A stretch of 64,000 nt of DNA from Magnolia sinica. Taxonomy: Eukaryota; Streptophyta; Magnoliopsida; Magnoliales; Magnoliaceae. The stretch spans positions 82,911,959 through 82,975,958 of the forward strand of contig NC_080579.1 in NCBI RefSeq assembly GCF_029962835.1, in the 5' to 3' direction. Below the pieces are notes generated by a model. The model saw only the letters and a list, made by a program, of their open reading frames with translations, had not been told where the DNA came from and made no database searches. Position numbers and translations under genes: made by a program. Below, in pieces: positions 24,893 to 59,718 of the stretch. Numbering within the stretch: the first letter of the stretch is position 1; every line of letters starts with the position of its first letter.

Positions 24893-25381
24893 GGAAGCGG
24901 ATTGCCTGTTACCCGGGATATTCTTGTGCCCGGCACTGTGGGGTGATGTCAATGACAAATCCACTCCGTTTATTTGTTTTTAAATACCACAACAGGACAG
25001 AATTCTAAAAATCAAGAATATCCAAAACTCACGTGGGCCATAACACACAAAACAGTGAGGATTGAACGCGTGGGGTGACAGAAGTTTTGTATCGGGATGA
25101 TAATAGTTCCTACATTTTATCCGAGTAGCAATAACCTTATGAACGGTTTGGATGGCATATAAACACTATCGTAAGCTCAAGGAAAGTTTAAACGGTGGAC
25201 TTTTTGTTCCCACCATATCGTTAATGTAGCCCAAAAATCTGCCTGATTTTTATAATCCTATCCTATTTGGGTCTTTAAAAACAGATAGATGGAGTGGATT
25301 TGTCACGGACATATCTGTGGGTGCTACAGAGCCTCAGGAACAGGTATATCTCTGTGCCCGGGTCACAGGCAATCCGCTTCC
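24893..25381. mobile_element. fold-back MITE copy 1 (GGGCCCACC family)
   Basis: Long inverted ends: left GGAAGCGGATTGCCTGTTAC then CCGGG; the right end is the reverse complement GGAAGCGGATTGCCTGTGAC then CCGGG. Inside lie the family landmarks: CTCACGTGGGCCATA, GTTTGGATGGCATATAAACA and CACTCCGT. There is no coding capacity. I class it as Mutator-like from the target-site length seen in copy 2; no clean duplication was found for this copy. Confidence 0.75.
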
Positions 25382-25443
25382 TAACGAAAGCCAAAAGCGG
25401 GTTCAGGTCAGCTAATGACCCCGTCGCCATACGCGCAGGAAAC

Positions 25444-25909
25444 GAGAGCGGATTAGGTGAGACCCTGGCCTCACCTAAAGACCGTGCGTCCCTTACCGTA
25501 GGGGCCACCTTGATGTTATGTATCAATGCCGTTCATCGGTTTTTCCAGATCATTTTAGGGTATTATCTCAAAAATGAAGTAGATCCAATTATCAATTGGA
25601 CCATACCATAAGAAACAGTGGTGATGGACCATCCTACCATTAAAAACTTGTCAGGGAGTACCTTAATGTTTCCTTAGTGTTTATTTAACATCCAATCTGT
25701 TGATAAGTTCACATAATATGACCCACTAATGGTCAACCAACACGGTTTCTTATGGTATGGTCCACCTGATAATTGGATCTGCTTCGTTCCCTAACATAAT
25801 TCAAAAAAACAATACACGGAATGGATACATAATACATACATCAGGGACCCACGGTAAGGGACGCACCCTCTTAGGTGAGAGAGACTGGGGTCTCACCTAA
25901 TCTGCTTTC
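25444..25909. mobile_element. fold-back MITE copy 2, 9-bp target duplication
   Basis: Ends GAGAGCGGATTAGGTGAGAC and, reverse strand, GAAAGCAGATTAGGTGAGAC. The flanks GCAGGAAAC (25435-25443) and GCATGAAAC (25910-25918) match at 8 of 9 sites, the length expected for Mutator-like elements. The core has GTGCGTCCCTTACCGT arms and TTTTAGGGTATTATCTCAAA. Only 62 bp separate it from copy 1. Confidence 0.8.
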
Positions 25910-26143
25910 GCATGAAACACAAGTGAAATATCCAACCATCCATCATGTGTACTATATCGTGTAGATGTTATTGCTAGAAGAGAAAGGTTGTCCACTCGAT
26001 GCTAGAAGATCTGGGCCCGATTGCTATATTCGTTAGAAATCCATTCCTGATGTCAGTTTCACCCAGCACAAAGATGAGGCAGATCAAACACCCAGATGGG
26101 CACATGACAAGAAAAAGTGGGCGCTGTCGGTAGGCCCTTCATG

Positions 26144-26684
26144 GGAAGCGGATTGTGTACTGAGTAAGCGTAGTGAGTAAACTCTGTGGGCCCCACTGTC
26201 ATTTATGCATTGTATCCACTCCGTCTGTATCCACTCCGTCCATCTGTTTTACCACATAATTTTAGGGCTTTATACCAAAAATGGAATATATAAAAATCTC
26301 AATTGGACCACACTACGGGGAACAGCGTGAATTGAACATCTACCGTTGAAAAATTCTTGGGGGCAACTAAAGTTTTAGATCAAGCTGATATTTGTTTTTT
26401 CCCTTCATCCATGTATGTCTGATCTTACGAACAGGTTGGATGACAAATAAACATCACCGGGGGCCTTAGAAAGTTTTCAATGGTAGAAATCAATACTTCT
26501 ACTTTTTTCCCGTGGTATGATCCACTTGAGCTTTGTATATGCATCAATTTTGAGTTGAACCCCTAAAATGATATGGAAAAATGAATGGACGGCATGGATA
26601 AACCACATGCATTCTCGGAGGGCCTTACAGAGTTTACTCATTACCATAAGAGTGTACGGTAACTCAGTACGCAGTCCAATTTCC
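26144..26684. mobile_element. fold-back MITE copy 3
   Basis: Left end GGAAGCGGATTGTGTACTGA and right end (reverse strand) GGAAATTGGACTGCGTACTG; both arms continue to GAGTAAACTCTGT before the shared core. The flanks CCCTTCATG and CCCTTCGCG match at 7 of 9, within a base of the proposed ends. Confidence 0.7.
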
Positions 26685-26695
26685 CCTTCGCGGGG

Positions 26696-27244
26696 GGAAG
26701 CGGATTGCGAAGTGAGAAACTCACCATGCTTAGCGCACTGAGTAAACTCTGTGAGGTCTGTCATGATTTATGTATTGGATCCGCTCCGTCTATCTATTTT
26801 ACTAGATAATTTTAAGGCATGGGCCGAAAAATTAAGCATATAGAATATGCAAATGGACCACACAACAGGAAACAGTTGAATTGAACGTCTACCGTTGAAA
26901 ACTTCTTGGGAGCCACAGAAGTTTTGGATCAAGTTTATATTTGTGTTTTCCATACATCTATGTTAGTATGATTTCATGAACATGTTGGATGACAAATAAA
27001 CATCATTGTGGGGCCTAGAAAGATTTCAACTGTGGAAATCATTATCCCCACTGTTTCCGATGGTATGATACACTTGATCTTTGGATATGCTTCAATTTTG
27101 GGCTCAACCCCTTAAATTAGATGGAAAAACGGATGATGGCGTAGATAGACAACGTACATTCAAGGTGGGCCCAACTGAGTTTACTCAGTACAATGAGAGT
27201 ACGATGAGAGCATACTGAGTAACTCAGTAGGCAATCCAATTTCC
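26696..27244. mobile_element. fold-back MITE copy 4, next to copy 3
   Basis: Starts 12 bp after copy 3 in the same orientation. Ends GGAAGCGGATTGCGAAGTGA and (reverse strand) GGAAATTGGATTGCCTACTG; the arms share CACTGAGTAAACTC with copy 3. The core contains GGAAACAGTTGAATTGAACG and TTTCCATACATC. Copies 3 and 4 are close relatives in tandem. Confidence 0.7.
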
Positions 27245-27581
27245 TCAATGGGACTACAGTGATGTTTATATGCCATCCAAACTGTTGGTAACATTATTGA
27301 AAACATTCTTGAACCAAAACTTCTGCAGCCACAAAGTAGTTGGTGTGAAACACTACTTTTGGTTGCGTTCCCCCAGACTGTATCTGATATAAATTGGAAT
27401 CCATTCACACCAAAATGATATGTTTTGAAATCTCAACAAACAGGTACCCTCTCCATTCAATTTCGCATGAAATCTTCACCCCGTCAATGACAGGATTCAA
27501 CCATGGCTGCCACCACCACAGGCAGCAGCAGCAGCCATGGCTACCATGAGCAGCTGGTGCCCACGAACCTCTGGCCACAGC
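27245..27581. other. non-coding stretch with a short CAG-rich frame
   Basis: It includes a short ATG frame at 27503 (MAATTTGSSSSHGYHEQLV...) made of CAG/CCA-rich sequence. No domain or splice support is seen; not called as a gene. Confidence 0.35.
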
Positions 27582-28141
27582 TAGGGCTGAAATGGTCTAG
27601 GCTAGTCCATTGGACGTCTGGGCCTAGCTCGTCTTGGGATGGACTTGGGCTGAAGTATAGGCCCAAGATCTGGGCTTGGGCTAGAATATTATACCCGTTT
27701 TAAAATTGGGCTGGGCTTGCACTAGTCGTCCAAAAACACTTCTTATCCAGCCCGACCGTTAGGGTTTTCTAAGGGTAATTTTATAATTTTATTTATACTA
27801 TAAAAAATTTGAAATCCCATCTACTCTCTTTCTGCCTTACCTTGACCCACAGAGGGGTAACTAGACATCTCGAGGGCTAGCACAAGGATCAACTTCCTTG
27901 TGTTGTCATAGCATATGTTCTACTCCATTGAACAAACCACCCCAAACACTGCCCTAAGTTCGTACTTTAGATAAGCTTTCATATCTTTCTCTCGATTTCG
28001 TCATGGTGGCATGGCATGGCATGGCATGGAGCTCGGGCTGGACTATTCTGTCCCATCATGAGCCCGGGTTGGGTTCGGGCCAATGTTGGAAAATGTGGGC
28101 TGGTCTTAGATTGAGCTTTTCCTGACCCATTGACACCTTTA
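27582..28141. mobile_element. probable hAT-like MITE
   Basis: Begins TAGGGCTGAAATGG and ends, reverse strand, TAAAGGTGTCAATGG, a common end type of plant hAT MITEs. The interior is rich in GGGCTGGGCC-type words and a short (ATGGC)n. The 8-bp flanks GCCACAGC and GCTGCAGG match at only 5 of 8, so the ends may be slightly misplaced. Confidence 0.45.
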
Positions 28142-28832
28142 GCTGCAGGGACCCAAAGTCATGGCTGCGAAATAGATGGGGAGATTGAACGGGGTAGGAG
28201 ATTAGTTCTATTTTATTTATTTTTATTTTTTAAAAAGATACTTTAGGATAAGAGAATATGAAAGATAATGGTTTTGATTTGGACCTGGTAATCAATCAGT
28301 GGGCATGCTTGATTATAGGCTTGGTTAAAGATTGGTTTATGTTCTCTCTTTGGTACGAACTATTGTAATTTGTCAACCAGTCTGAGAAGCCCATAAACAA
28401 CAATATGTTGATGTACAAAGTTGTCCACAGTATCTTTAACTACTGGGCAAATCTAGACCATAGAATGCATGAGTTTCATCATTTTGAACACAGGGGTTTT
28501 GCTTCAACATTCTAAGTCAATGAACTAACTTTTATAGCCCACTTGAGATTTGAAATCACCTCATTTTTTGCCAAAGTATATTTCAAGGGGCTCATTATAA
28601 TCATTTTGTAAAATGTTACATATGTACACCAATTTGAGGTATTAAAGATTTTTTAGTTAATCAAATTCAGGTACTGTGAACGTTGCCTGTGGTCTCGACC
28701 ACCCTACTTCCCACACAATCCACATGAGGGCAGAGGAAGGATGTTCGCATGTAGGCCCACTTTGGGGTGATGCAGTGTGTTTATTATTTGACTTGGCTAT
28801 CTTCTCGTTTTCTTGGTTGTGCAATTCTTTCA
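28142..28832. other. non-coding stretch
   Basis: AT-rich sequence without a gene or a recognised repeat. Confidence 0.4.
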
Positions 28833-29766
28833 GGGGGTATTTGGTGCAAGGGATTAGCCGGTATTAAGTGGGATGGAATTGCTTCTTCTTTTTTTTTCTA
28901 ATAAATGCACTTGTCAGTGGATTGTTTCTTAATGCCATGGGAGTGAGTCTATTCACTTTGGTGTTTACGTCCTCTACGAGATATGGCTTAAATATATGTT
29001 TTGATTTGATAGTGTTTGGTTGTACATAGAAAACAACTTCCAATCTTGAAAACAGTTTTTGAAAACCCACGCTAGGAAACAAGGTGGGGCCTACCTTGAT
29101 GTTTGTGAGGATCCACCCTATCCATCCATTTTGCAAGATCATTTTAGGACATGCTATAAAAATTTAGGCAAATCCAAAACTCAAGTGGGCCATACGAAAT
29201 GAAATAGTGGGGAAAGCAATTCCTACCGTTGAAACCTTCCCGAGCTCCACCTTGATGTTTATATGTCATCCCAACCGTTTATAAGGCCATTCCTTTCAGG
29301 ATGAACTGACAACACAGAAAACTTAGCATGATACAAAAATTTTGTGACCATATGAATGTTTCAATGGTGGTCACTCAATCCTCACTGTTTTTTCTCATGT
29401 GGCCCACTTGAGTTTTGAATCCACCTCGTTTTTTTGTCGCATGCCATAAAATGATCTTGCAAAATGGATGGATTCCTCACAAACATCAAGGTGGGCCCCA
29501 CCTCCCTTCCCAACGCAAGAACTTCCTGCGTAAAAACTTTAGCAAAAAATTCGAAGGATTACGAAAATCTGAAGATTACAAAAATCCACACTTGTGGCGA
29601 ATGGGATTGCAGAAAGCCTTCCTTACTCCATTTAAACCAGCACAAGACCCTATGTTGAAAACCCTAGCTCTAATATGACGAACCAAACGAGGAATGATTT
29701 TTCTTACATAGGATTTGAAGATCTATCCCACTTAATACTAGGTAATCCCTTAAACCAAACATGCCC
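28833..29766. mobile_element. Harbinger-like MITE carrying an inserted fold-back MITE
   Basis: Inverted ends GGGGGTATTTGGTGCAAGGG and (reverse strand) GGGCATGTTTGGTTTAAGGG, both followed by ATTA..(C/T)...GTATTAAGTGGGAT. The flanks TCA/TTA suggest a 3-bp PIF/Harbinger duplication. The middle is occupied by another element (29075-29509). No transposase. Confidence 0.6.
29075..29509. mobile_element. fold-back MITE copy 5, nested
   Basis: Arms GGAAACAAGGTGGGGCCTAC and (reverse strand) GGAAGGGAGGTGGGGCCCAC continue through CTTGATGTTTGTGAGGAATCC. The core has the family words GTGGGCCATACGAAATGAAA and TTTATATGTCATCCCAACCG. It lies inside the Harbinger-like MITE. Confidence 0.7.
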
Positions 29767-31956
29767 TTAAAGTCGACCAAGAATGGTATGTTTGGAAATT
29801 TGAAGTCGTCACTAGCCAATTAAGCTTGGTTGAATCCACAATTAGCTAGAGTTTGTGGGATAGCCTTGAGGTCAGGATATCGTGAAATCTCTTAACCTAA
29901 ATAACTTCAACGATTAGCCTGTAACCACAAGATTTGAGTAAGGGTCTCGATGACAGAAGAGGATGAGGTTAAGCACCATCTTCTACCCGCACGATGTGTA
30001 ATCTTTACTCTATGAGATGTATGACTTTCGAGAAAATTTAACTATGCAGTAGTGTTGTGCATCTAGTCTTACTTCACGTAGTCCTTTAAGAGGACCAAGC
30101 AAGTGAAAATAGAAAAAATCATATCCTAGAGTCAGGAGGTCAAGCGACATCAAGTATGCAAACAAAAAAAGGTACACAAAATAGATAAAGTAAGAATGTG
30201 AATGACGATGATGATAAATTTGTGAATGTGTACTAAAATGGAATGTGTTTTGAGTTTGACTGAGATGTCTGGAAGAAAAGAGAAATAGGATACCCTTTTT
30301 ATACAAAAGGGATGATCAAACATCTCTAATTCTGACCCTACTCTTGATTTAGCTAACTTCCTTTGATGGATTGAATTTTTAAGGGCTGGCATTTTCAACT
30401 AGGCAGGGCTTCGGCAATGGTGTAGAACTTTTCGAGCAATCTTAAAGAAAGGGGACCCCTCGCAAAAAAAAAAAAAAAAAAAGGCTTACTGGAGGCCTGG
30501 ATTTATAGAAAATTATCGTCAACTTGTGGTGAGCCAATATTGTTCTTTCGTTCATCTACATCTTTGGTTGGTAAAAAGTAGGCCAGGTGTTTTTAGGTGT
30601 GCGGTGGGTTGACAGTTCACTTCCTTCATTCTCTCCTGCCTGGCTATGTTTTGGAGCTTTTCCTTCGCTTTTGATGTCTGATTCCTGGCTAATCCCAAGC
30701 TTACAATATCTACGATCTCTTGATCATGATCGTTTACTGCCTCTAAGGGGTACTTAGGTTATATTCTTTGTTTTTTGGTCTATTTCCATTACTTCTTGGG
30801 GCGTATGGGTGTAGTTTTATTGAAGCGAAGCACGGGTATGGATTTGAGCACATGCATATTATTAGTTCTGATTATAGGTCCAAGGGTCGAAATCTCTCAA
30901 TCTAGTTCTATGACTGTAATCATGATGAACCGAGGTTCCCGCTTCTTAATTTTGCTAAGCATGTAGTGGTTGTTAAGGGATAGAGGGGCGATTTTATCGA
31001 AGTTCAACCAATGATTTATGAGTAGTATTTTGCGATTTAGGTGGGTTGTCTATAAATGCCCCTTTCTAGCAAAGGTTGCCAGCAACCGAATGCTAAAGCA
31101 AGTGAACACTCCACCGTTCGGTTAGGATGGTGCGAATTGTCTTATTTCAATCATAGTATCTTCATCAAAATGCTTATGGGGTCGAAAAAACGTTGTGACT
31201 TGTCCCTATGCTTCTTATGGCTTTAAGGGTCACCAAATCAATACTCCTCCACATCATGATTACAATGAGCGCATCAAGGGTGTCTTCAAGTCTGGATGGT
31301 TGGAGCCTTTACGCTTTTTGTAGCATTATGAGGGTAACTTTTTTTTTAATACGGAAAAGTAGTTCGCGGTGCATGCACGATCCCTTAAAACTGCTTGTAA
31401 GACAAGTCATCTGTAACGGGCAATTTCCTACACGTTCTACACCTTTTGCAGATATCCCACATTATGGATGCATTGGTCTTATAAGTATCTTGGACTAGAG
31501 TCTTTTTAGGTTATTCTTCTAGCATGCAAAATTTTGATTTTGACACTTTCATCGAACTGAGCTTCTTCACAGCTAAAAGTGTAGTTGTGTTATCTTAATC
31601 ATACTTTGTTTGCATTCTAAGAAGGTCGACCTAACACTAAGAGTCTTTAAGTCGATTGTCTTGTATCCCACATATGATTTAGGAAAAACCAAGATTAAAT
31701 ATTGCTTGTGTCAGTACCCACCAGGGAGTGTGAAAGACTCCTCAGTGCCTCGGATATCGTGTGCATTGGGTTTCTGAAATCTTTTATTTTTTATTTTGGA
31801 TTTTGAAGAGGTCCCTACCGGTAGAACATGGTTTTGTGAAGTTTTTATGTAAAAATCATTTTAAAATATCTTTTCGAAGCTGTTTTATCATCAGATGGTT
31901 TTTTTATTGGGCCTTTTCTTCTTCTTTATTTCTTAGGAATTTCTCAATTGAGTCTA
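29767..31956. other. 2.2-kb stretch without gene
   Basis: Mixed sequence with a homopolymer A run near 30.47 kb and several short unrelated frames. Parts near 29.95-30.03 and 31.70-31.90 kb look like decayed repeat DNA, but I cannot name the family. Confidence 0.4.
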
Positions 31957-32560
31957 TGATGTAGAGTGGGTCACAGACACTTTCATGTCCAAGATGGACC
32001 AGAGAAGGCCCGATCAGAGGTGGAAGTGATCAAGATTGTCAGAACTTCAAAATAGTCGTATCTCACAAACCAGGATGAGTTTTTCGATATATCATATATG
32101 ATTTTGGTATAGGAGAAGATACTTTAGCCAACCAACCCCACTATGATGGGTTGACCGTACCAGATTCACTTGATTCCATCATATCAACGGTCAAAAGTCT
32201 TTTTTATTTTCATTTTTACTATAAACAATAAGTTTTGATTCAATCATAACTTTTGATCCTTTGTGTTTTAAGAGGTGTGTCCAACATGAAAATGGCTTAA
32301 TAAAATTAGGAGAATAACATGTTTAGGCCAAATTGGACACTATTTTTGGCCAAAAACCATAAAGTCTAATAGGAATCATGATTGTCTATAAATAAGAAGT
32401 TTACTACTTATAATAAGTCACGTTTTTAGGGAGTTTTGAGTCTGAAACTCCACTCTAGGTTTGAGTTCACTATTTTTTATTGAGTAGTCTAGAGTCACCA
32501 AAACCGTTCTTACAATTGTAGGTGTCAATTCTTCCTCTAATGCATCAAGTGGATATCATT
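31957..32560 (+). repeat. copy of the 704-bp LTR family (copy 1, end uncertain)
   Basis: Begins TGATGTAGAGTGGGTCAC and shares a long ordered series of motifs with 46877-47580 (opposite strand) and 63474-64000. These include TTTCATGTCCAAGATGGA, TCTCACAAACCAGGATGAG, TAGCCAACCAACC, TCCAACATGAAAA and CTATAAATA. The right end could not be fixed. Probably a solo LTR or truncated LTR. Confidence 0.65.
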
Positions 32561-32766
32561 AGTATGGTATGTCATTAGCTTGGTGTAGGTTTGTTTCTAC
32601 TTGATTTTGCTGATCGCATGGCAGAGCTCCAAGTTGGGTCTTGTTCTCTCCTGTTTTTCCTTCCTTCTTTGCCAGCTTCTTTTGTTAGAGTTCCTTTTTT
32701 GTGGTTTAAAGGATATGTAGGTCTCTTCCGTTTTGTGGAGCCCACCTAAATGATTGTATATAATTT

Positions 32767-32943: not shown

Positions 32944-32952
32944 ATATAATTT

Positions 32953-33678: not shown

Positions 33679-34202
33679 GGGAGCTGATTGTGTCCTGCCC
33701 CTGACTAGAACATTATCCGTACATGCAGGGGCTCTGTGGGGCCCACCGTAATGTATGGGTTTTATCCATGCCATCTATAAATTATTCTAGATCATTTTAA
33801 GGCATAAGCTCAAAAAATAGGGAGGTCCAAAGCTCAAATGGACCCTGCTACTGGAAGCAGAGGTGATAATGACACTCACCATTGAACCTTCTTAGGGGTT
33901 ACAGTGATGTTTATTTGCCATCTAACTTGTTCATAAGGTTCTATAAGACCTGGAAGATGGAAAACACAAATATCAGCTTGATCAAAAACTTCTATGACTT
34001 CCAAGAAGCTTTTAACTTGAGCGTTCAATCCCTACTTTGTAGTCCACTTGAGCCTTAGTTCTGCCTCATTTTTGGGTTCATACCCTAAAATGATAGGGAA
34101 AATGGATAGATGGCGTGGATAAAACACACATATCATGGTTGGCCTACACAGCCCTTCCTGGACAGATTATGGTCCAGGCGGGGGCAACACGCAATCCCCT
34201 TT
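33679..34202. mobile_element. fold-back MITE copy 6
   Basis: Left GGGAGCTGATTGTGTCCTGC then CCC; right (reverse strand) GGGGATTGCGTGTTGCCCCC. The arms reach CTGTGTAGGCC/CTCTGTGGGGCCCACC and then the shared core (ATTCTAGATCATTTTAAGGC, GGAAGATGGAAAACAC). The ends are approximate. Confidence 0.65.
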
Positions 34203-34629
34203 CCAGACAAATGCAATTTTTCTTTTTTAAAATGGCCATAATGGCCATTATGCCCCGTATCATAAGAATAACCATTACTGTAGCCGTTATAGCTCGTTGC
34301 TAAATAGCTTGGATCCATTAGCTCACAAGAGCAGTGTAAGGTATAGCACGCCTAGTTGTATTGGGACACTTAGTCAAATCCACTGTCCACTGAGTCCCAC
34401 TCACATTTCATAGTATAATCCATTGATCCCGACTATCCACTGTGTCCCACACACATTTCAGCATCTATCATGCTAAACATCAGACCAATCCCACAAATAT
34501 TAATCATTTGATTAATGGCCTTTTATATGGACGATTAAGATTGTTTACACAAAAATGTCCAACCAAGAAGTTGGTGCATCTATTTACTAGAGCCCCTCAT
34601 GGAGTGCTCGTGATTTTAAAGAACTTTCC
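34203..34629. other. non-coding stretch
   Basis: Contains CCACTGTGTCCCACTCACAT-like words repeated twice near 34.38-34.46 kb. No gene. Confidence 0.4.
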
Positions 34630-34741: not shown

Positions 34742-34799
34742 TAAATCCAAATCAAGGATGACTGTTGATCCAATCAGTGTGATTTTTCTATAAAATATG

Positions 34800-37847: not shown

Positions 37848-37849
<2 letters not shown>

Positions 37850-39714: not shown

Positions 39715-40345
39715 TGTGAGGCCCACCTTGATGTACTTTGTGGCCCATCCGTCAGGCCCACTTTGATGTATTTTGTGGCCTATTAGAGAGGCCCACTTTG
39801 ATATACATGTGGCCCATCATGATGTATCTTTGAAACATGAGCGGGGCCCACCTATTGCGTGTTTTGAGGCCCAGGTGCAGGGCCCACCTATTGTGTATTT
39901 GAGGCCCGTATAATGAGGCCTATGGGTTAGGCCCATTGTGATGTATTCGAGGCCCATGAGCAAGGCCTGATTTAATGTATTTATGGCCCATGTAATGGGG
40001 CCCACCTGTTGCATATTTGAAACATGTGGGTCGTGGCCCATTGTGATGTGTTTCTAGCTCATATGTCGTGGCTCATTGTGATGTATTTCCAGCCCATATA
40101 TTATGGCCCATTGTGATATATTTTCGGCCTATGTGATTCGGCCCATTATGATGTATATGTGGCCCATGAGTGAAGCCCGACGTGTGTATATGAAACCCAT
40201 GAGTTAGGCACATAGTGATGTATATTAGGCTTTTGTGTAAGGCCATGGGCCCACTATATGTTTAACCTTATGTGGGCCACTCCTTGGGAGCAATGTTGGT
40301 TGACTGTCCACATTGATGGGCAATGATAGTTGGATGTCCACATTG
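39715..40345. repeat. GAGGCCCATTGTGATGTAT array, block 1
   Basis: About 13 degenerate units of roughly 40-50 bp: GAGGCCCA(C/T)(C/T)(T/G)TGATGTAT followed by TTGTGGCCCAT. It ends in AGGCCATGGGCCCACTATAT and GCAATGTTGGTTGACTGTCC, a tail that recurs after block 2. Confidence 0.8.
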
Positions 40346-40529
40346 TGACCTTCCCTTAGACCTTGTTAGGTTGATTCTCATAATTCACTTGTGGGTTAAC
40401 CTAAATAAGTGGGCTTCATTCGCCATAGATGAATGGTTTCGCGCTATCAGATTTGATACAACCACAGCCAAGGGTCGATCGTTATATTATGATTGATTGG
40501 CTGTCCACCTACGGACCCCACCTTGTTTA

Positions 40530-41036
40530 TATATGCTGGTCGTCGATCGGTACCGATTATCGATGTTAATTATTGGCGCCGATTGTCGATGTTGAGCATT
40601 GGTGCTGATTATCGAGGCCGATTAACGATCGAGGCCATTTATCATGGCCGATTGTTGATTCCGATTGTCGTGGCCGATTGTCAATTCTAATTATCGAGGC
40701 CGATTATCATGGCCAATTGCCGATTCCTATTGTCGTGGCCGATTGCCGATTTCGATTATCGAGACCGATTATCGATCGAGGCCGATTATCATGGCCGATT
40801 GCTAATACCGATTATCATGGCCAATTATCAATTGATTTGCGATTGTTGTGGCCGATTGCCGATTCCGATTATCGAGGCCGATTATCGATCGAGGCCGAAT
40901 ATCGAGGCCGATTTCGATTTGTCGAGGCCGATTGTATAGGTTAAGTTCAATTGTCGAAGCCGAGTATCGAGGTCAATTCCGAGTGTCGATTCTGATTATT
41001 AAGGCCGATTTCGATTGCCGAGGCTGATTGTCGAGA
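40530..41036. repeat. GGCCGATTATCGAT array
   Basis: Short degenerate units (about 12-20 bp) built on (G/T)GGCCGATT(A/G)TCGA, with variants such as CATGGCCGATTGCC. Around 30 units. It is enriched in GATC/CGAT and CpG, unlike the flanking AT-rich DNA. It lies between the two GAGGCCC blocks. Confidence 0.8.
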
Positions 41037-41470
41037 CCTATATGATGTATATGCGACCCATAGTTGAGGCCCATTGTGATGTATATTCGGCTGGTGTGAT
41101 GTATATACGGCCCCTATTTGGAGCCCAATGTGATGTCTATGCGGCCAATATTTAAGGGCCATTGTAATGTGTATTCAGCTCGTGTTTAAGGCCCAATGTA
41201 ATGTATATAAGGCCTATGTGATGAGGCTCATTATGATACATTTGAGGGCCAGGCGATGGAGCCCATTGTGATGTATGTCAGGCCCATGTGAAAGACTCAT
41301 CGTGATGTGTATTAAGCTCTTGAGTGAGGCCCATAGTGTTGTATATTTAGCCCTTGTGTGAGGCCATGGGTCCACTATATGTTAGGCTTTATATGGGTCA
41401 TTCCTTAGGGGCAATGTTGGTTAAATGTCCACATTGTCGAGGATGATTGTCGATGCCGGCTATTGATACT
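41037..41470. repeat. GAGGCCCATTGTGATGTAT array, block 2
   Basis: The same unit as block 1, closed by the same tail (AGGCCATGGGTCCACTATAT, then GCAATGTTGGTTAAATGTCC) about 1.1 kb after the first. It is followed by a short return of the GATTGTCGATGCC sequence, so the whole array was once duplicated as a composite unit. Confidence 0.75.
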
Positions 41471-43207
41471 GATTATGAATATGTGACAGCATAACATCAT
41501 GATACATACTCATACGCATCATCTGCATGTTTGATTATGAGATATGGTTGACCATTGCATATGGTAGGTTGTTCATAGGACTCCCTGATAGGCAGAGTTG
41601 CCCCATATGAGCGCACGATATGCGTAGGATTGATGCATGATCGAACTATGTGACTCATGCATCTTACATTGTGTGTGTTGTGATTACTGTACACCCTAGC
41701 GACATCAGGGCCGTAGCCTCCACATGCATATCGTGGATGGCCAGATGGGACACCAAAAATCTGTTCTACATGGGGTGCTATAGATATCCCTGAGTGAAAG
41801 TCCCTAAACCCTCTTGGTTTCAAAGGTTGCTCCAACGTTTAACCGAGTAGACGCATGAGCGCATGAGGGTCGTATACCGTTGGCCGCGTCTCCCACTGTT
41901 TCGTGGTCGGTTGGAAGAGGGTGCAACCTTACCTGCCTGAGAGGAGGGGGTAAAGCTAGGCTGAGTTTGACCAGCTCAAGGAATGGGTTTGCTATCGACA
42001 AGTCGGGCCCGATATTGGCAGCGGATATTGAGGTATCTTCCACTCACCTTGTTGCGCGCGATGGGCCGGCAATCTGGTTTGGAGTGTAATAGACCCCGGT
42101 GATTTCTCAGGGAGGAACTGTACTGATATGTGGACTTATTGAGCATGAGTTGCATACTCATTCATTCATTCATTTACTATCTACTCGGGCTGGTGGTGCG
42201 CAACTATTTGTTACGTGTACCTTCGTAATGGCCAGGATCTCGGTTGGGGTGTGTGACTAACCTGAGATCAGGAGTTTACCACATTAAGTCTGACTATCCA
42301 AATTTAGGTTTGAGACTGGTTTGAATAGAAGTCCCTTGTAATGGACCCTATAGCTTGCGATACTACGTACTATCATCTCGATTTTATGCTCCAGCATGAT
42401 CATTCCATTCGCACCGCATATCTCATTACATCCGTAGCATATGACATTTTGGGTTACTATATTTCTGCATTTATACGGCCTAGATACGACTGAGGGTATT
42501 CGTGGACTCATCAGGATTTGCATATTGTATTGCATCTTCGACATTTGATATTTGGCTTGTTGTCTCCGCATTGCATAACTGATCTATATTGCTTTATCAG
42601 TGTATAATATTGTTTTATTATATTTCTGCATCGCATAGCCTAGATAAGGCTGATGGTATTTATGGGCCTATCAGTATGTTTTCGCATTACTCTGATATCA
42701 TATGATTTATGAACTTGCCAGTATTTCTAATATTATACGATTTATGAGCTTGTCAGTATTTCCGCTTACTCTGATTTCTCTGATATTGCTTACTTAGCAC
42801 TTACCTTGTGCACACACTTTTACCACCCACTAAGCTTTCTATAAGCTTGTGCACGATAGATGCATATAGGTGACGTTAATTTGCAGCAGCGTTAAGCATG
42901 GAGCATATAGTGGTCTTCTGGAGCTTTGATTTTGACATATGTGTTTTTCCTTTCAGCATTATATTCAAATGTTTATATTAGTAGATATGTGATGATGATG
43001 TTACCTTTGAGATTTGGGTAAACTTGTGGTTATGCTTCTTATGAAATAAATATACGTTGTAAAACCCTCCTTATAGGATCCCAGGATCGGAATCTAGCAT
43101 GTGAGTGCTGAGAGCCGAGAATAGGGTACTACAGAGGTTGTCGGCACCGAATTCGGTGATCAGGATTCCTGTGAGTCCGATCTCCTGGTTTGGGGCGTGA
43201 CACGTTT

Positions 43208-47580: not shown

Positions 47581-47585
47581 TTAAT

Positions 47586-50225: not shown

Positions 50226-52636
50226 TACTAGAACCTATTGAAATTGTGTAAATTATCTAGCATGGCACATGCGAAAGCTTAACAAATCTTAAAATTATGA
50301 GCAAGTACTTTAAAATTCTTTTCTTAACTAATTTACCAATTCAAACTAATAAGTCAATTAACACTCAGGCTTCCAAACCAAAATGAGTCTAATCACATAA
50401 ACTACAATATGTGCAACAATTAAGCAACTAGTTTATAAAGCAAGATAGTGATCTTGTGTGTGAGATTTGCTAACTATTCAACACCTAAGATACATCTAAT
50501 TATGCATTCATATAATTCAAGGAATTAAGCCCACAAGCATATATAGAAATGTACGCAAATAATAATCCCAAACAAAAGCATGTATAATGGTTCAGCTATT
50601 TATCTACTCTATTCCCAGCAGACACACTCTCATTGAGTGTACCAAAATTTCACTATCGGAGGTTTTAAATTAAGTTCACCTATAACATTTACAAGGGTAC
50701 AGTCCCATTGGAGGCCTACACAAGGACTTGACGCACATACGCTCCTATGTCAGATGAACACATTTTCACCCATGTCAATGGCTCCCATAAGATACTTTAG
50801 TTGATTTTTTATTGGCTAACCAACAACCACTAGCGGTCCTAATCTAAGGTTCTATGTACACTCCCATCGAAGGCTTTCTTAAAGACTAACACGTACACAC
50901 CCGTGTCTGGTAATGTGGTCCTAATCCAAGGCCCTACGAATACTCCCGCTGGAGGATCCTCATGGAGACTAACACGTACGCACTCGTGTCTGGTGAATTT
51001 GAAAATACACAAGAGCCTAGATCTTATACAAGAACCTATTTGAGTTTAGGTCACAAAATGTACAGTCAATCCTACACAATGAAATAGTATGAAATAGACT
51101 CTAATAAATAACAACTGTACTTGTAAGATTTAGCCCATTTTGTAGTGCCTTGTTGAGATATTCAATGCTCTCTCATGCTTGAATCAACTTCTTAATTGCT
51201 CTCCCGATCGTTAATGCTGATGGTTCAACTCTACGATCAAGCACCTTGCATGCGATGCTCCGATGAGATGACTGAGGTAATGGGAGTTGGGTTAAATCTC
51301 ATATAACTAATGATATTAGTTGATTCCTAGTAGTGATTCACTTAAATGGGTGTTCTAGAAGATTTAGATAAGAATATGCCTATAGGTTTGTGTCTAATCT
51401 CTAGAACAAGCGAGAGAACATGAACCTTCATAATCAAGCTTGGAATGTTAATTAGATTGGTTAATCAGAAGAATGATATTATGAATATATTTGGTTTGGA
51501 GTCTAGGATGAAGAATATGAATGGGAAATCACACAGGCTTTACTTGCACAAAAACCTATCGTTTTCCCCAAGAACCGAACGCCCATTTTATAAAAATAAT
51601 GTTGCAACGGCTAGTTAATGGTTCTTTCAATAGGATCGAAATGTCATTCGATATGATCGAGCTATCATTTGATCCCATTAAGAAACTCCAAAAATTTTTT
51701 ATTTACTTGCTGGACTTTGATTCCATCAAGACCCACTAAAAAATTACTATTTTGGGTAGTGTGATTTACAACATTTTTGCATCTCTTATAACGTAACTTA
51801 TCATCTTCTAAATGAGCTCCCAAGACTGAGGGATGATCAAACAAAGGTTTACCTATTTAAGAATGTATCATGTATAGGCTATGTTGTTTTGAGTCTAACG
51901 ATAAGGTCACCAAGGCACCTCATGATTTACCTAATATTCACTCCTTGATGCTTCATGTCTTCATGTGTTTTTGGTCTTTAACTTTCAAGGACTCAACTGA
52001 CTTACTGACACAGACTCACGTGATTGACAAATAGGTGCACAAATAAGTGCACTAACACTTGCCCCCAAGTGCTTCATTATTCGGCATGAATGACATATAG
52101 CGAGTAAGTCATGGTTTATATCATTTTTATTTGGACCGTTGAATTGGCCGTTTCTTCCATTCCTCCTAATGCTTACCTGATGTGACATATTTCAGCCTAC
52201 CATATTTGGGTCTAGCTGAATATTACGTGTACATATAATCGGCAACTTTGGGGGTACATTGTTGAATCTAGGTGCTTCCTGATTATACTGATGGTAATCG
52301 AATAACTTGTCATTAAGGAATGTTACAAGCATGTTTATAGCTTCAGTTTGAGCCCTAAAGTATTTGGCTTGCACCCTTAATCAATTAGTTCTCATAAGCT
52401 AACATTAACACTTCCTAAAACTCCATTAAAATCCATGGAGTTGCTTTGGGGTGATGATTCTACCGTTGGAACGACTAGAAGTGGATGGTTAAGGATCTAT
52501 TGTTCGGTCTGCATTGGAAATGCTTCAAGGACCTGATTAAGATCATGATCTTCAATATTTTCACTAACTCGAGTAAATTGCTTACTTATGTTGTTAAACA
52601 TTTCAATTAACAACTGCACTTCTGTCCCATCGGGCT
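50226..52636 (-). other. internal non-coding part of the Gypsy fossil
   Basis: Leader side of the fossil. It holds imperfect repeats at 50.70-51.00 kb, with the words ACTCCC.(C/T)(G/T)GGAGG and GACTAACACGTAC then CACTCGTGTCTGGT. Several short minus-strand frames near 52.0-52.8 kb have no recognised domain. A further nested insertion somewhere in 50.2-52.1 kb is possible but no target duplication was found. Confidence 0.4.
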
Positions 52637-53552
52637 TGCCATTGATTTCGAATTCGGTCACACAGAAAACGTGTGTGGATTGTAGGCATGCCAGATCTGA
52701 TTGAGCCTGTTTCAAACCCTGACTACCGACCCCTGACTTTAAGATAGATTGAGGTTTGGTCGTATGCTTAATCATTCGTCTATTCAGCCAATCATGTGCA
52801 CTCGTTACTCAGGTAATTGATGGAGGTTGGGCCTCTTCCTCTAATGAGCTCTTTTTTGCCTTAAAAATTTAAAGACTTTCAAAAGTGCAATAATCGTATG
52901 GTTGAAACGGAAAAGATTGGAGAGACGTGGGTGCGGAGAGAGACATATGACTTGCCACCATAACGGGATCACTGGCCTAACTGAAAGTAGCATGATGCTT
53001 TTGAGAGCAACATACTGATGATTGAGCCAAAGGCAATGTCAGGGATTACAACTACGGTCCGCCCAGCGTATGAGTATAGGTGGACAGATTCCTAAGCTAA
53101 TGTCTTCCTTTACATCCGACACGCATATACAAAAAAAAGAGAATTACAACAACTAGTTACAACTGAGAGTCGGTCGGTCTGCTGGTGTCGAGTAGTGGAA
53201 AACTGAACTTATACATACAACGTTGTGTTGGATTTGTAGCTGGATTTTGGATTTGGAGAAAGAGGGTGCCGTACTTTGGATTTGCTTCTACTATTTATGG
53301 CCATTAAGGAACGATGAAGGAACAACTATCTGTCCAGATGTCGCTTTCACGTGTAACCAGTTAAGAAATAACAATTATAATCATTGATAATGATATTATT
53401 CTTATTAGACGCTCAAAATGTGCTCCAGGCTTACGTGTGTGGAATGGAAAAGATGATATTTCCTTCAAACTCCTGCGCATGCTTCTCAGATATTCTCTAT
53501 TCCACATGGCTAAATGTGCACCATTTATTTAGTCTCTAGTGATTTTGGTACA
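52637..53552 (-). repeat. Gypsy fossil LTR (5' side)
   Basis: Partner of 34800-35796, same orientation, ending GATTTTGGTACA on the plus strand. A minus-strand frame overlaps its end, but the similarity to the left copy covers the whole block. Confidence 0.65.
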
Positions 53553-53789
53553 AATAATGAGTTATGAGTAAATAGACGGTTCAGGTCCATCGATCTGGAT
53601 TGTCCAACATCGAGAAGCATTTACAGCGCTTTGTGGGTACCGGAGCATTTCTTTTTATCCTAATCAATTGAATTAGTACCACACACGAATCGTGAGAAAA
53701 AGGTCGAAATTGGGCGGGAGAAAACAAATGATTAAGATCGATCCGCTGAATTCCATGTTCGGTGGGGTCATTCTGGCACTTATGTTGGC

Positions 53790-54288
53790 CACTCTGCTAC
53801 TGGACGCTGCTCTGTGGGCCTTACCATGATGCGTGTATTTTATCCACGCCATCCATCCATTTTTTCATATCATTTAAGTGTATGAGTCTAAAAATGATGC
53901 AAATATAAATCCTAGGTGGACCACACCATAGGAAACAGTGGTGATTGATCGCCTACCGTTAAAAACTTCTTGGAGCCACAAATTTTTGGACACGCTGGTG
54001 TTTGTGTTTTCCCTTCATCCAGGTATATGTGACCTAATCAATAGGTTGGATGGAAAATAAAAATTAATGTGGGCCCTACGAAGTTTTTAATGGTGGGCGT
54101 TCACTCCATTGTTTTCATGTGGTGTGGTCCACCTGAGATTTCGATCATCCCCTTTTTCGGATCCATGTCCTAAAATGAGCTTTCAAAATGGATGGACGGC
54201 GTGGATAAAATACTTACAACATGATAAGGCCCACATAGCACCGTCCAACAGCCAGTCTCTACTCGCTCGTCGGTATGCGATCCGCGTT
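53790..54288. mobile_element. fold-back MITE copy 7 (ends approximate)
   Basis: Arms CTACTGGACGCTGCTCTGTG and (reverse strand) CTGTTGGACGGTGCTATGTG before GGGCCTTA(C/T)CATGATG. The core holds CCACACCATAGGAAACAGTG and TTTTCCCTTCATCCAGGTAT. The right end GATCCGCGTTC resembles the family tip. Confidence 0.65.
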
Positions 54289-54977
54289 CTTTTCACGTGT
54301 GAGTTTTCGAATCTAGAAGGCAGAAGCACACGCAAAAATATACTTCCCCTCGAAGTCATGACTCGGCAACTACAGTGATAGTTTGTCATCATTTTTCAGG
54401 TTTTATCGAACAACAGCTACAGGAAAAATGTTCAACGGTCTAAATTCAATTACGAAAATTAGATGGTCACGATCATTCGATCCATGTAAATTTTTCGGGC
54501 CAAGCTCCACTCACAGTAGATTTTTAGTTTCTCAAAATCCAAACTTTTATACACGTAGACACCATAACTTAAAATTTCGATATAAAACAATCACCATAAC
54601 TTACGTTTGGAAAAGAGGATATTCAACGGTCGCGTCAACCAGAGGCATCCATCGCCACGTGGCGCATTTCGGCTGCTTCACGTTTACGGCTGCCGGCTGC
54701 CAACCATAACCGTTGAACCTGATCCATTCACACACGCCAAAACATTGTTCAGGGATTCCCGTTATACCCTCATTGGCTATTCAAAATATCAAAAAAAATG
54801 CCCTTACACAATCATTTTTACCAAAATTAGTTTGTTACTCGACTCGGCTCCATGTCCAACCGGGTCGGGTTGACCCGAAGACTCAACCGAGTCTTTCGTT
54901 GACTGGCTCATAATCAAATAAAAACATATACTGGTTATAACTACTTAAAAATGATCTAAAGTAGATAAAATTACTTT
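54289..54977. other. non-coding stretch
   Basis: Overlapping short frames on the plus strand without domains. No repeat is named. Confidence 0.4.
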
Positions 54978-56070
54978 CATGGTGGGGCTGGTAAGGTGCA
55001 TGGGCTCTTTTGACAGGACTTAGAATGCTTTCATGATGCTCCATGGGCTGCACTAGGATGTATTTGTTTCCAATTTATTATAGGACATTAGCTTAAAAAT
55101 GAGGAAGATTCAAAATTTAAATTAACCACTGACTATAGTAATTGAATTCACAACATTACAAACTTTCCAGGGCCCACTGTAATGTTTATATGCTATTTGA
55201 CTTGTTGATTAGGTCACATGGACCTGAATGAAGAGAAAATGCAAATTTAAGCTTCATCAAAATAAATTTGTAGCCCTTAAGAATTTTTTAATGGTATGAG
55301 TTCAATAACTATTGTTTCCTCTATAACATGGTCCACATGAGATTTTAATCTACCTCACTTATGGGCTCATACCTTAAAATGATCTGAAAAAAATGAATGA
55401 ACAACATTGATAAAACACATACATTATCGTGGGGTGCATAGAGCAGTACGGCTGTACACGAGTCGAATTGAGTCGAGCTTGACATAGCTTGACTCGGCTT
55501 GCCACTAGCTGACCCTAGCTCGAACTTGACTCAGCTTGGTCCTCGAGCTTGACTGGGCAACTTGGCTCAGCTCGGGCCAGTTCGAGCCAAGATTGAGCCT
55601 CTGCGGCATTTTCTTAAACACATGGAGTGCACCTTCAATTTCTAACAAAATGTAAAGCGGCAACATCGGTTTACAAATATTTCATCAAACACTCAGTAGA
55701 TAATATAAAAATTAAGATGCAAAGGAATTTGTTTCATATCGATACCTTCCTCACCACCAACCAATACTTCATTGATTCATTTCATCAAATACTTGCTAAG
55801 GAGCATCAATATCAAAATAACCGAGTCACCAAACTGGCTCAATCCAAGTTTGATTCGAGTTCAATCCGAGTCGAGTTGAGCTCGGGTAAGCTCGAACGTG
55901 ACTCGAAAGTTTTTCGCGCTCAAGAAATCAGCTCGACTCAACTCGAACTCAGTTTCGAATTGAGCTTTTTCGAGTTGAGTTGAACGAGATAACCGAGCTA
56001 ACTTGGTTCGTATAAACCCTTATAGAGCATCATCTGAATAGCTACAACATTTGTATGCAATCCGTCTCCC
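54978..56070. mobile_element. fold-back MITE copy 8 split by an hAT-like MITE
   Basis: The core words TTATTATAGGACATTAGCTTA and ATGGTCCACATGAGATTTTA belong to the family. The right arm is interrupted after GGGGTGCA and resumes beyond the insert with ATCTGAATAGC, ending ATGCAATCCGTCTCCC like the family tip. The left end is diverged and approximate. Confidence 0.55.
55447..56022. mobile_element. hAT-like MITE inserted in MITE copy 8
   Basis: Ends TACGGCTGTACACGAG and (reverse strand) TAAGGGTTTATACGAA. The 8-bp flanks TAGAGCAG (55439-55446) and TAGAGCAT (56023-56030) match at 7 of 8. The interior is rich in GAGTCGAGCT/AGCTCGACTC words, as in the element at 13817-14294. Confidence 0.75.
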
Positions 56071-56571
56071 TTTTTAACCAAAAAAAAAAGTCGACAAGTT
56101 AACTGGCTAAGTTTATTTTCTTGCATTGTATTGGTCCACATCATCATTAACACTATATCAACACTGCTACGTTAAATCGCATCTCATATTGCAACAAATA
56201 AGAAATTCAATTTCAGTCATAACGAGTGATGTTGAGTCAACCAAGTTTTTGAGTACAGCTAGTGATGTTGAGTCAACCGACTCATCCAAACCAAGTCATG
56301 ATCAGGAGTGAGTTTACTAGACTGGTCAAGCCTGGTTAACTCAGGATGTGTTTCAAGTCGACCCCCGAGATTTAGAAGTTTGGTTGTACCATGCTAGGAA
56401 AATTAATCTAAGCAAGTTATATATAACTTCACTATCTGTAGATGAATTTAGAACAATAAAAAATCAAAAACTTTAATGTGTTATATTTTGTTTTAAAATA
56501 ATATTAAAATTTGAATTTTCAAATTTTCAGTGATTTCCCTCCACATTTGAAAAGTTTTGGTACTTTTGTAT
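56071..56571. other. non-coding stretch
   Basis: AT-rich, with a ~40-bp direct repeat of AGTGATGTTGAGTCAACC at 56.22-56.28 kb. No gene. Confidence 0.4.
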
Positions 56572-57438
56572 TGTAGGTTTTGTCCTACATCAGATATGAC
56601 AAAGTAAACTATCTTGTATATAAGATGGTCTTTTTACCTAGGGCTTGAGCCCCTTTCAGAGGGCATGTGAATTTGGTCTTATGGGGGGACTATGCCACAA
56701 TAGCTCTAATCTATGTCATTGACCACACACGCGCGCGCCGAGCCGAGCCGAGCCGAGCCGTGCCGTGTTGTGCCGAGCCAAGCCCAGTCTGAGTCTGTGT
56801 GCGTGTGGGCGTGCACATGCACATGCGCGACGCGACGGGCTAGGCACCGGCACGGGCGTGGACGCAGGCGCGGGTGAGTGTGGGTGTATGTGTATGTATA
56901 CTCGCGGGACTTTATTTGCGAGAGTGTACTCGCACTTGCGCCTTTTCGTTCTAAACCAGAGAGATGTATCCCTTCCGGTTGGTCGCACCTAAACCCAACG
57001 GACCTAAACTTTTGTAAAGTGTGTTTATACACCACTTCAGAGTCTATATAAAGACTACCGATTCCAGTTTTAAATATATGAAATTATTATCTCTCTTATA
57101 AAACTCTCTCTGATACGGTTTTAAGAATTTTACTAAGTTCATCGCTGAGTCAACTCAGCATTTTCGGATTAAATTGCAAGTGATTCGAGCCCGTGTACAA
57201 TGAGTGCACCGCTGGGACCAGGTCATAGTCGTTGTATCCTAGAGGTCGATTACTCTGGAAACTTGTTGCATTTGGGACGCTGTCTAAGGAGAGAAAATTC
57301 GATTTTAACCCGAGTGACTTAGTCACGCCTCGACTTAATTCAATAAGTTCTTCTTTCTCAAAATTTTATTTTATTTTATTTTATTTTTTATTTTTTCTTG
57401 ATTTTAATAGTCTATTTAATTCAACCAAATATTCCAAC
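56572..57438 (+). repeat. Copia-type LTR remnant (probable)
   Basis: Starts TGTAGGTTTTGTCCTACATC, an LTR start form common in plants, and has TATATAAA near 57044. The downstream block GCACCGCTGGGACCAGGTCA...TGTATCCTAGAGGTCGATTA resembles the U5 end of plant Copia LTRs, as far as I recall. It may end at CCAACA (57438). No target duplication was found. Confidence 0.45.
56735..56890. repeat. CpG-rich (GCCGA)n and (TG)-rich patch
   Basis: Repeats of GCCGAGCCGA, then CGTGCACATGCACATGCGCG and CGGCACGGGCGTGGACGC. It stands out from AT-rich surroundings by its density of CpG. Confidence 0.7.
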
Positions 57439-57985
57439 ATAATGGATGCCTTTCATCACTAAAATCAGAAGTTTGGATAATCTCTGTAGCGTGTTTAAGG
57501 GATAAGAGATATTTTATTATATGAAAAGGAATATAAGCGGTTCTAACAGTAGGTAGAGCAATACAGGTTGGCTCTGACGGATGCAAAACGAACACTATCA
57601 AAAGTGTGTCACTGCAAAGCACACTATCACCGTACACGTGGCGCAAACTTACAAGATTTGAAGCATTTATTTATTGAGCCCTAGTAGAGCATGCCACACA
57701 AGATAAAATCTACGGTTCAGATGATTGACGAGTTGTATATGATGAGTGTCAGCAGATCCGTGGAACTTAACCCCTGACCATCCATTTGTAATTCACGTAG
57801 GGACCAAATAACGAACGATCCGGATGGCAACTAAATAGCATGACTGGGTACGTTTATTACTGAAGAGCGTTCCAGTAAATGGCTAACATCTGACTTTGAA
57901 TTTTGAAATATCAAGATCAAAACCGTTAAAATCGCAATTTTTTAGGCTCGCATTTATTTGAACTTACGGTAATTACCCTACATTC
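57439..57985. other. non-coding stretch
   Basis: No gene or clear repeat. Contains common short words such as CGTACACGTGG. Confidence 0.4.
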
Positions 57986-58330
57986 GAATTGTGTGGGGCC
58001 CACCCATGATGTAATGTGGAATCCCGACCGTGAATCTGGTGTTCCTTATGTTCACCGTGCGTCCCAAGAATCATCCTTGTGGAAAACTCAAGTGGACAGC
58101 AATGTATTATCATGCCTAACGTGGTGTGGCCCATCTGAGGTTTTGAATGGCGTAAGCTTTGGTAAGTCCTTTCATTCCAGTGGGGTGCACCTGATGAACT
58201 GGTTGGATGGAATATAAACACTTGCTGTACCCCAGATTTCATCTGGAAATTTCTATTGTAAGTGTGTAATGGATGGGTTGGATGGTACTCAAACACAACG
58301 ATTGGCCCATGCAGCCCGGAGATCATACCA
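57986..58330. repeat. MITE-like repeat, second GGGCCCACC family
   Basis: GTGTGGGGCCCACCCATGAT at the left and ATTGGCCCATGCAGCCC at the right enclose ACTCAAGTGGACAGCAATG and GGTTGGATGGAATATAAACA. It is related in wording to the fold-back MITEs but not colinear with them. Confidence 0.45.
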
Positions 58331-58885
58331 ATGGATGTGATCATATTCAATTAAAAACAAACAAAAATTAACGGTCGTTCTTGTCAGCTTAGAATAATGA
58401 CGGCTCAAAATTGGCATCTGTGGGTGATATTGACCACCCAGTCAATGGACAGTCCCCGTTGAATAAAGGTGGACCGTTGTCCAGTCAATGGACCGTTAAA
58501 CGGCTAAGACTGAGAGAAAAAAGAAAAGAAAAGAAAATTAACAGATTTCATGGCTAGGATCTTCATAAACACACAGGAGGCATCCCCATACACGGCCAAG
58601 ATCTGGCATCAAGTCTAGATTACGTAATTATGAGGCCCACATGCATGGATTAATCAGTCCTTAAAAGTCCATCCTGATTAGTCTACATAGCCAGATGTAC
58701 GGTAGTGATGTGCCTTAAGCTTACCAGGAATCGTACAATGCTGAAGCCGAATGTTGTTACGTAATTGGGGCTTTCTCTGATTCAGTGATCTAATCGGTGG
58801 TTCCTGTGATGGCCCACCACGAGTCACCGGCCAAGCGGGTTTATCAGATCCGACTTGGGCGAGTCCCCACTCGATTCAGGCCCTT
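58331..58885. other. non-coding stretch
   Basis: No gene. CCAGTCAATGGACAGT-type words occur twice near 58.44-58.49 kb. Confidence 0.4.
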
Positions 58886-59160
58886 GCGACATCCGTTCTG
58901 TTCATCAGTTTCTCCAACTCATGCTAGGATTTGATCCAAAAATTGAGGCAGATCCAAAAATCAGGTGGGCCACACCATAAGAAACAGTGTAAATGAATGC
59001 TTAGACCATAGAAGTATCGAGTAAGGCTGATATTTGTGCTTTCCCTTCATCTCGGTGGGAATTACCTTATAAACGGGTCGGATGGCATATAAACATTACA
59101 GTTGATTCCAATAAGCGTTCAATCCCTCTGGTACTTGTGTGGCCCACACGAGTTTTCATA
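58886..59160. mobile_element. fold-back MITE copy 9, fragment
   Basis: Colinear with the family core (GGTGGGCCACACCATAAGAA, ACAGTGTAAATG, TGCTTTCCCTTCATC, GGATGGCATATAAACATTAC), but both outer arms are missing. Copy 10 begins just after it. Confidence 0.6.
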
Positions 59161-59179
59161 GAAAGACCACTGACGAGAA

Positions 59180-59718
59180 GGAAACGGATTGGCTACTCCC
59201 CCTGCCACCAGCTTCTTGGCTGGTGGTCGGTGCTCTGTGGGCCTCATCATGATGTTTGTGTTTCATCCATTTCGTTCATCTATTTTTACATATCATTTTA
59301 TGGCTTGATCCCAAAAATGAAAAGGTTATAAATCTCATGTCGACAACACCACATGAAAACAATAGTGACTGGATATCCACCATTAAAATCCTCCTAAGGC
59401 CCACTATACTGTTTATTTGACATCCAATCTGATGATTAGATCATACAGGCGCAGATGAAGAGAAACAAACAAAGAACAGCTCGATTCAAAACTTTCATGG
59501 CCCCCAAAATGTTTTTAATGGTCTACCCACATTCAACACTGTTTCCTGTAATGTGGTCCACTTGATATTTGGATATACCTCATTTTTATACTCGTTCGTA
59601 AAAGGATATATAAAAATAGATGGATGGCATGGATGAAACACATACATCATGGTGGGGCCCACATAGCACCGACCATCAGCCATAGGCTGGTGTCAGGGGG
59701 AGTAGCCAATCCGTTTCC
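59180..59718. mobile_element. fold-back MITE copy 10, well preserved
   Basis: Ends GGAAACGGATTGGCTACTCC then CCCTG on both arms (reverse strand of the right arm identical through CTCCCCCTG). These are followed by CACCAGC, GG(C/T)CGGTGCT(C/A)TGTGGG and the shared core. The flanks GACGAGAA (59172-59179) and GACGAGAG (59719-59726) match at 7 of 8; the exact duplication length is 8 or 9 bp. No coding sequence. Confidence 0.82.

Follow-up and report, generated by a model that had tools for sequence, protein, structure and literature searches.

Galileo, a Foldback-like element of Drosophila, falls into subfamilies defined by their terminal inverted repeats (TIRs), into which sequence has been recruited; 12 of its copies are chimeric, with target site duplications (TSDs) that do not match, and exchange or conversion has been proposed as the origin of one subfamily (PMC3573991). 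In the Mutator/Foldback family Tm1 of root-knot nematodes, the TIRs of one and the same element are on average 93.15% identical (PMC3169594), and among plant miniature inverted-repeat transposable elements (MITEs) 41.5% belong to Mutator (PMC12550479). Here we report on a 64,000-nt stretch of the Magnolia sinica genome (NC_080579.1, positions 82,911,959 to 82,975,958; 'the window') and on its fold-back repeats, which are laid out as a GGAARCGGATT-like tip, an arm of ~45 nt and a palindromic core of ~420 nt, and which are non-autonomous, very abundant MITEs of the Mutator superfamily. A first-pass annotation had proposed that each copy carries an arm sequence of its own, matched better by its second arm than by the arms of other copies, either through conversion across the hairpin or because one end acquired new arm sequence that was afterwards copied to its opposite. 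To our minds it is highly probable that the arms were, instead, inherited by subfamily from symmetric founders, with rare arm copying at the level of the founder followed by amplification.

Arms are inherited by subfamily

Arm typing covered 116 full copies (from the window and from C1 loci), which provided 153 arms of sufficient length and with a tip at no more than two mismatches; among the first 60 targeted loci, the 10 that gave no full core match are excluded from every count. Single-linkage clustering sorted the arms into 27 types, seven of which have at least two arms. Both arms could be typed in 56 copies, and in 53 of these they are of one type (32.9 on average after shuffling); window copy 1, whose arms look visibly alike, is among the three exceptions. 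Arm type also follows the core: on a core tree of 112 rows (4 of the 116 copies were dropped as near-duplicates) the eight arm labels with at least two rows need 7 changes over 75 rows, which is the minimum (30.4 on average after shuffling), the 37 unlabelled rows standing outside this change count. T01 by itself needs 3 changes, with a sub-clade (T01b) nested inside it and two T01-typed rows beyond the main clade, one being L036 and the other the degraded copy at 53816 in the window.

The arms are inherited by subfamily rather than invented copy by copy, and a linkage of arm type to subfamily, which the first-pass annotation had raised, is borne out. Its view that every copy has its own arm did not survive: window copies 2, 3/4, 6 and 10 carry types T03, T02, T05 and T01, all of which recur in other C1 loci, copies 3 and 4 already had one common arm, and copy 1 alone stayed a singleton. 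What stands is that the two arms of one copy are alike; what does not, for T01, is that a copy's own arm is closer than those of its relatives (see below). The core is likewise shared, yet not uniform: between the consensus sequences of five families, identity is 0.75 in the outer half (core positions 1-70; 0.83 within families) and 0.68 in the inner half (positions 71-135; 0.75 within).

Arm-to-arm copying in one founder

Ordinary T01 elements ('lr') carry the loop CAATG in the left (L) arm and a CCCGTG-like loop in the right (R) arm, and a sub-clade ('gg') has the loop CCCCGGAGC in both. The gg loop has 288 strand matches genome-wide, palindromic variants being counted on both strands, and 52 of the 100 matches listed (of 288) form, by eye, 26 pairs ~467 bp apart; further gg-loop matches include elements ('lg') with the old loop on L and the new one on R. 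A core tree was computed with bootstrap for 81 T01 copies (L103, L036, L035 and the window rows were left out); its bootstrap is not fully settled. The gg copies are grouped there in one clade (support 97/86), which also takes in 9 rows that are untyped or damaged. Of the seven lg copies, six make up another clade (100/100), and the two clades are joined at 100/94. L046 and L074 branch just outside lg+gg and have an L-type loop on L and an R-type or near-R-type loop on R, L074 being doubtful (labelled ll, its R loop reads CCCCATGG); loop-typing rules varied between typings and some loops are kept as untyped (x).

The consensus L arm of gg is R-type at 6 of the 6 sites in positions 26-39 that separate the two lg arms, a 1-nt indel included. 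At position 68 it has the base found in the lg L arm alone, and inward of this position it is L-type at nearly all sites, R-like calls falling mostly at private lg changes; exchange of a whole half is excluded by these L-type sites further in. The copied tract thus lies in the outer arm and spans between 14 and 67 bp, with an inner bound that depends on one site (68), with the next clear site at 97. Since lg adjoins gg in the tree and lr-like copies lie outside, R changed before L, and we regard this as a clear case in which the R loop changed first, a tract was then copied to the L arm and the clade was then amplified. Gain of a new arm and its copying to the other end, the second option of the first-pass annotation, is therefore shown once, in a founder (lr to lg to gg); for earlier subfamily origins we infer it.

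Drift within copies and rival explanations

On our preferred reading, the copies would descend from a limited set of source elements, most source lineages having one arm type on both ends, and the likeness of the two arms in a copy would go back to the symmetric founder that passed on both. Once inserted, L and R arms would drift independently of each other. Symmetry would be restored rarely, and in source lineages, when one arm changes and the other subsequently receives a short terminal tract from it - most likely by a template switch to the inverted arm during break repair - and the homogenised element would subsequently amplify.

Homogenisation of the arms in every copy once it has inserted, with the extruded hairpin as the place of conversion, appears at first to be favoured by raw permutation tests, in which own L-R identity exceeded that of other pairs for T01 with set A2 included (0.825 vs 0.806, n=37, p=5e-5) and without it (0.815 vs 0.806, n=31, p=0.009), as well as for A2 itself (n=6, partly misfiled owing to L044 and L078; p=0.03, own R arm nearest in 1/6); T02 gave 0.690 vs 0.685 (n=6, p=0.26; own arm nearest in 0/6). 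On the same side are two single candidates for a copy-level event, L046 with odd inner-arm bases on both arms and L052 with an L-like loop on both. Even in the raw T01 test, however, L-L and R-R identity exceeded own L-R identity, and the own R arm was nearest for 0 of 37 L arms. Once core relatedness is controlled - with copies more than 97% alike in the core removed and each copy compared with its three nearest-core relatives - the raw within-copy excess disappears: over nearest-core copies it is 0.000 both for T01 without the gg clade (n=33, p=0.93; 18/33 positive) and for gg (n=15, p=0.85). In the former set own L-R identity is 0.816, as compared with 0.804 for other L-R, 0.840 for L-L and 0.838 for R-R, and the own R arm is nearest to the L arm in 0/33 and 0/15 cases, i.e. 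0/48. Near-fixed L/R differences persist as well, six in T02 (9 L arms, 6 R arms; over the 3 copies whose two arms were both usable, each arm shows the letter of its own side in 16 of 18 cells) and two in T01 (48 of 62 cells in 31 copies, the remaining pattern including the L letter on both arms 6 times and the R letter on both once). Moreover, while the exact L-type loop has 2,338 matches genome-wide, no pairs at element spacing were seen by eye among the 100 of these that were listed. Because there is no own-copy excess after core matching, because L/R differences persist and because L-loop pairs are absent from the matches listed, T01 arms drift apart independently after insertion. Copy-level conversion, albeit positive in the raw test, is therefore rejected for T01; as a general account, copy-wise homogenisation is largely refuted for this type and, to us, very improbable. 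The first-pass annotation had itself named, as the outcome that would speak against its proposal, arms clustering in subfamilies with no excess of within-copy identity, and this is largely what we find, except that founder-level copying is still seen once.

Arms that were symmetric in the ancestor and diverged by subfamily, with no conversion since the superfamily began, might explain why some arm types share a weak start (e.g. GGCTACTCCCCC, GAGTACTACCCCC, GCGTCCTACCCCC). Under such a scenario, though, L and R should have become as unlike as the arms of two families, and they have not: for the consensus arms of five tip families, L-R identity is 0.85 within families (0.74-0.95) and 0.48 between them (shuffled baseline, 0.44), T06 reaches 0.76, and of all eight families six show an L-R identity of 0.74-0.95, the families other than T01 and T02 resting on 2-5 copies each. 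The gg clade, in addition, has a direct L-from-R tract, and independent point changes to its L arm would have to produce six matching differences, including the 1-nt indel, within 14 bp. We hence give little credence to divergence alone, and since, without exchange of ends, one would expect L and R to differ as much as two families do, source lineages probably regained their symmetry once the families had separated, most strongly at the ends, the gg case being the one that is mapped. Somewhat less remote, yet still unlikely, is a swapping of arm types among unrelated elements by ectopic recombination, which would make the families mosaics. Two copies do resemble chimeras, L103, where a T05-like arm and the first ~120 nt of core are joined to a gg body, and L113, an ordinary T01 element except for its g-type R arm, but both look like fusions of two copies, their TSDs matching at 4/9 positions each as expected for fusions without later transposition, and the other arm types track the core tree. 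A further idea, which we put forward tentatively, is that subfamilies are born by a repeated two-step cycle in which one arm changes, terminal conversion restores symmetry and only the symmetric form bursts; if true, arm turnover over a conserved core would amount to a terminus swap by which to switch or escape transposases or silencing.

Several points weigh against subfamily inheritance with founder-level copying, besides the unsettled bootstrap, the single inner site and the raw tests mentioned above. Targeted copies come from C1 (for the gg set also C2-C4) and were chosen by exact patterns, which favours well-preserved arms; the T01 copy L036 has a core far from the T01 clade; and two of the eight families, T07 (0.42) and F (0.50), have unlike arms, their arms being partly cut at a fixed length. 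As for the order of events, the six lg loci (L090, L091, L092, L112, L114 and L117, on C1, C2 and C3) represent one original insertion: L091, L112, L114 and L117, in which the TSD is readable, share CTTTTATAT and the regions of L090 and L091 align at 96% over 1,164 bp, while gg copies have many different TSDs. A reversal in the lg lineage is conceivable, albeit less parsimonious, and the seventh lg-labelled copy, L113, sits among ordinary T01 copies. Alignments of L109 with L111 and of L109 with L110 also extend past the element, and both the lg insertion at its six loci and the L109 pairs probably travelled inside some other repeat that is dispersed or duplicated. At two loci (L010:5852-6779 and L023:4956-5883) a T07 core and an F core are neighbours, identically arranged and separated by ~86 bp, and this pair may be one composite or dimeric mobile unit.

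The family, the window and known systems

Window copies served to build a profile, which was then refined on 264 kb, i.e. the window plus twenty 10-kb C1 stretches which, having been picked around motif matches, are enriched for elements. The full-core profile (421-nt core, at least 80% coverage) gave 80 non-overlapping matches in the 264 kb, 14 of which were discarded for incomplete core ends; a half-length profile for pairing half-cores confused outer with inner repeats and was abandoned in its favour. Genome-wide, one core motif has 12,800 exact matches across the 1.84-Gb assembly, compared with 20 for the reversed pattern, and an exact pattern of tip, 20-50 nt and core start has 4,318, compared with 0 for its reversed control. 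Over 59 distinct flank pairs, a 9-bp TSD is supported by 73.8% identity (26.5% when shuffled), with 23 perfect pairs and 40/59 at 7/9 or better (shuffled mean, 0.85), whereas lengths of 5-8 and 10-12 bp gave no comparable signal; at the 7 bp of Foldback/Galileo and the P superfamily, identity is 0.300 against 0.251 shuffled and not one 7-mer pair is perfect. The inverted repeats sit at the TSD boundary, as in Mutator MITEs, and window copies measure about 0.47-0.55 kb from tip to tip, below 800 bp. None of the 12 stop-to-stop frames of at least 150 aa in the window lies inside a tip-bounded copy, and one of them overlaps the distant core match at 62196. It is the 9-bp TSD, the terminal inverted repeats and the lack of a transposase frame that assign these repeats to the MITEs of Mutator-like elements (MULEs).

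Presumably they are mobilised in trans by a MULE transposase. PF10551, the MULE transposase domain, is common genome-wide (1,104 candidates, of which 150 were scored, those listed being above the cut-off). Among the scored matches listed, many lie in open frames of 700-990 aa and eight share one score, 115.7 bits; matches of equal score likely represent a recently active MULE family.

Eleven of the 80 profile matches (each at least 80% of the core model) fall inside the window (Table 1), several of them flanked by GGAARCGGATT-type tips, so that a fold-back core common to many copies and the tips assigned to it are both confirmed; the interval proposed for them, 24893..59718, does hold copies but leaves out the core matches at 60029-60377 and 62196-62644.

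Table 1. Core matches in the window (L and R, left and right; TSD, target site duplication)
Feature	Position	Strand	Arm type	Ends and remarks
Copy 1, divergent	24893..25381	+	singleton (GCCTGTNACCCGGG)	exact tips at both ends; 9-bp TSD not recognisable (3/9)
Copy 2	25444..25909	+	T03 (GGTGAGACC..)	TSD GCAGGAAAC (25435-25443) / GCATGAAAC (25910-25918), 8/9
Copy 3	26144..26683	+	T02 (CTGAGTAAACTC)	L tip GGAAGCGGATT, R tip GAAATTGGACT; flanks CCCTTCATG / CCCTTCGCG, 7/9 by eye
Copy 4	26696..27243	+	T02	L tip GGAAGCGGATT, R tip GAAATTGGATT; flanking 9-mers alike at 5/9 only, by eye
Copy 5, core match	29086..29499	-		without GGAARCGGATT tip; core groups with arm type T04
Copy 6	33679..34203	-	T05 (GTGTTGCCCCC)	
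Core match, arms degraded	53816..54232	+	T01 by single linkage	..ACTGGACGCTGCTCTG / ..TTGGACGGTGCTATG; core placed beside the T01 clade, not within it
Core match	55045..55437	-	untyped	
Copy 10	59180..59718	-	T01 (GGCTACTCCCCC)	exact tips at both ends; L-type loop on L arm, R loop altered and untyped under the loop rule
Partial core match	60029..60377	+		beyond 24893..59718
Distant core match	62196..62644	+		105.8 bits; beyond 24893..59718

The window also holds two Copia-type long terminal repeat retrotransposons (2587-10955 and 17353-24622) with direct repeats 97-100% identical near their ends and with several broken frames that encode gag, integrase and RVT_2 domains, as well as degenerate tandem arrays side by side at 39751-41480, with ~13/26-nt (CCGATTRTCGAGG-like) and 34/35-nt (GGCCCATTGTGATGTATWT-like) units. 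Elsewhere on C1, three adjacent MITEs recur in the same order ~50 kb apart (L027:4188-5713 and L028:4662-6179), which is a segmental duplication. The consensus arms of T01, T02 and T05 are near-palindromic and so make nested fold-backs; relative to dinucleotide shuffles, their folding has z-scores of -2.9 to -5.5, as compared with about -1.2 for T03 and +0.35 for T04. We make no claim to a hairpin conserved in every arm: 17 hand-picked arms seemed, taken together, strongly structured, but random arms, one for each of the 27 types, were no better than flanks (mean z -0.36 vs -0.35). Compensatory changes in T01 numbered 4 on L (shuffled mean 1.89, p=0.10) and 1 on R (mean 1.00, p=0.68), and an arm hairpin for T01, T02 and T05 is a lead only.

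Together, our findings correct a tempting misreading, that of copy-specific and self-matching arms, and offer in its place an ordered one-sided change, arm-to-arm copying and burst in one clade. The lr/lg/gg series makes it possible to test how terminal inverted repeats can evolve and yet remain similar, and with thousands of copies the family is big enough for measuring conversion tracts and their rates.

No title on arm conversion in plant MITEs came up in the literature searched, in which journal coverage is partial. Plant MULE-derived MITEs have in common with the present family a 9-bp TSD, TIRs, a short non-coding body and high copy number (PMC12550479); what sets the present family apart is that its subfamilies resemble each other more in the core than in the subterminal arms. 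Tm1 is similar in its 9-bp TSD, MITE-like members and composite TIRs; those TIRs, however, are made of mostly 14-bp tandem repeats, and subfamily-linked arm types are not described in the part of that paper at hand (PMC3169594). Plant MULEs with multiple long TIRs resemble our elements in having ends whose TIR make-up changes, although there a single element has multiple TIRs, as opposed to arm replacement over a conserved core (PMC3310237). Galileo is similar in its TIR subfamilies, its chimeras with unmatched TSDs and the exchange or conversion proposed for the origin of a subfamily, yet it is a member of the P-element superfamily with a 7-bp TSD and long repetitive TIRs, whereas here the TSD is 9 bp and the copied tract at most 67 bp (PMC3573991). 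Conversion and chimeras are thus already known from Galileo, and the present family adds a well-resolved example among plant MULE-MITEs, one in which the order of events is unusually clear.

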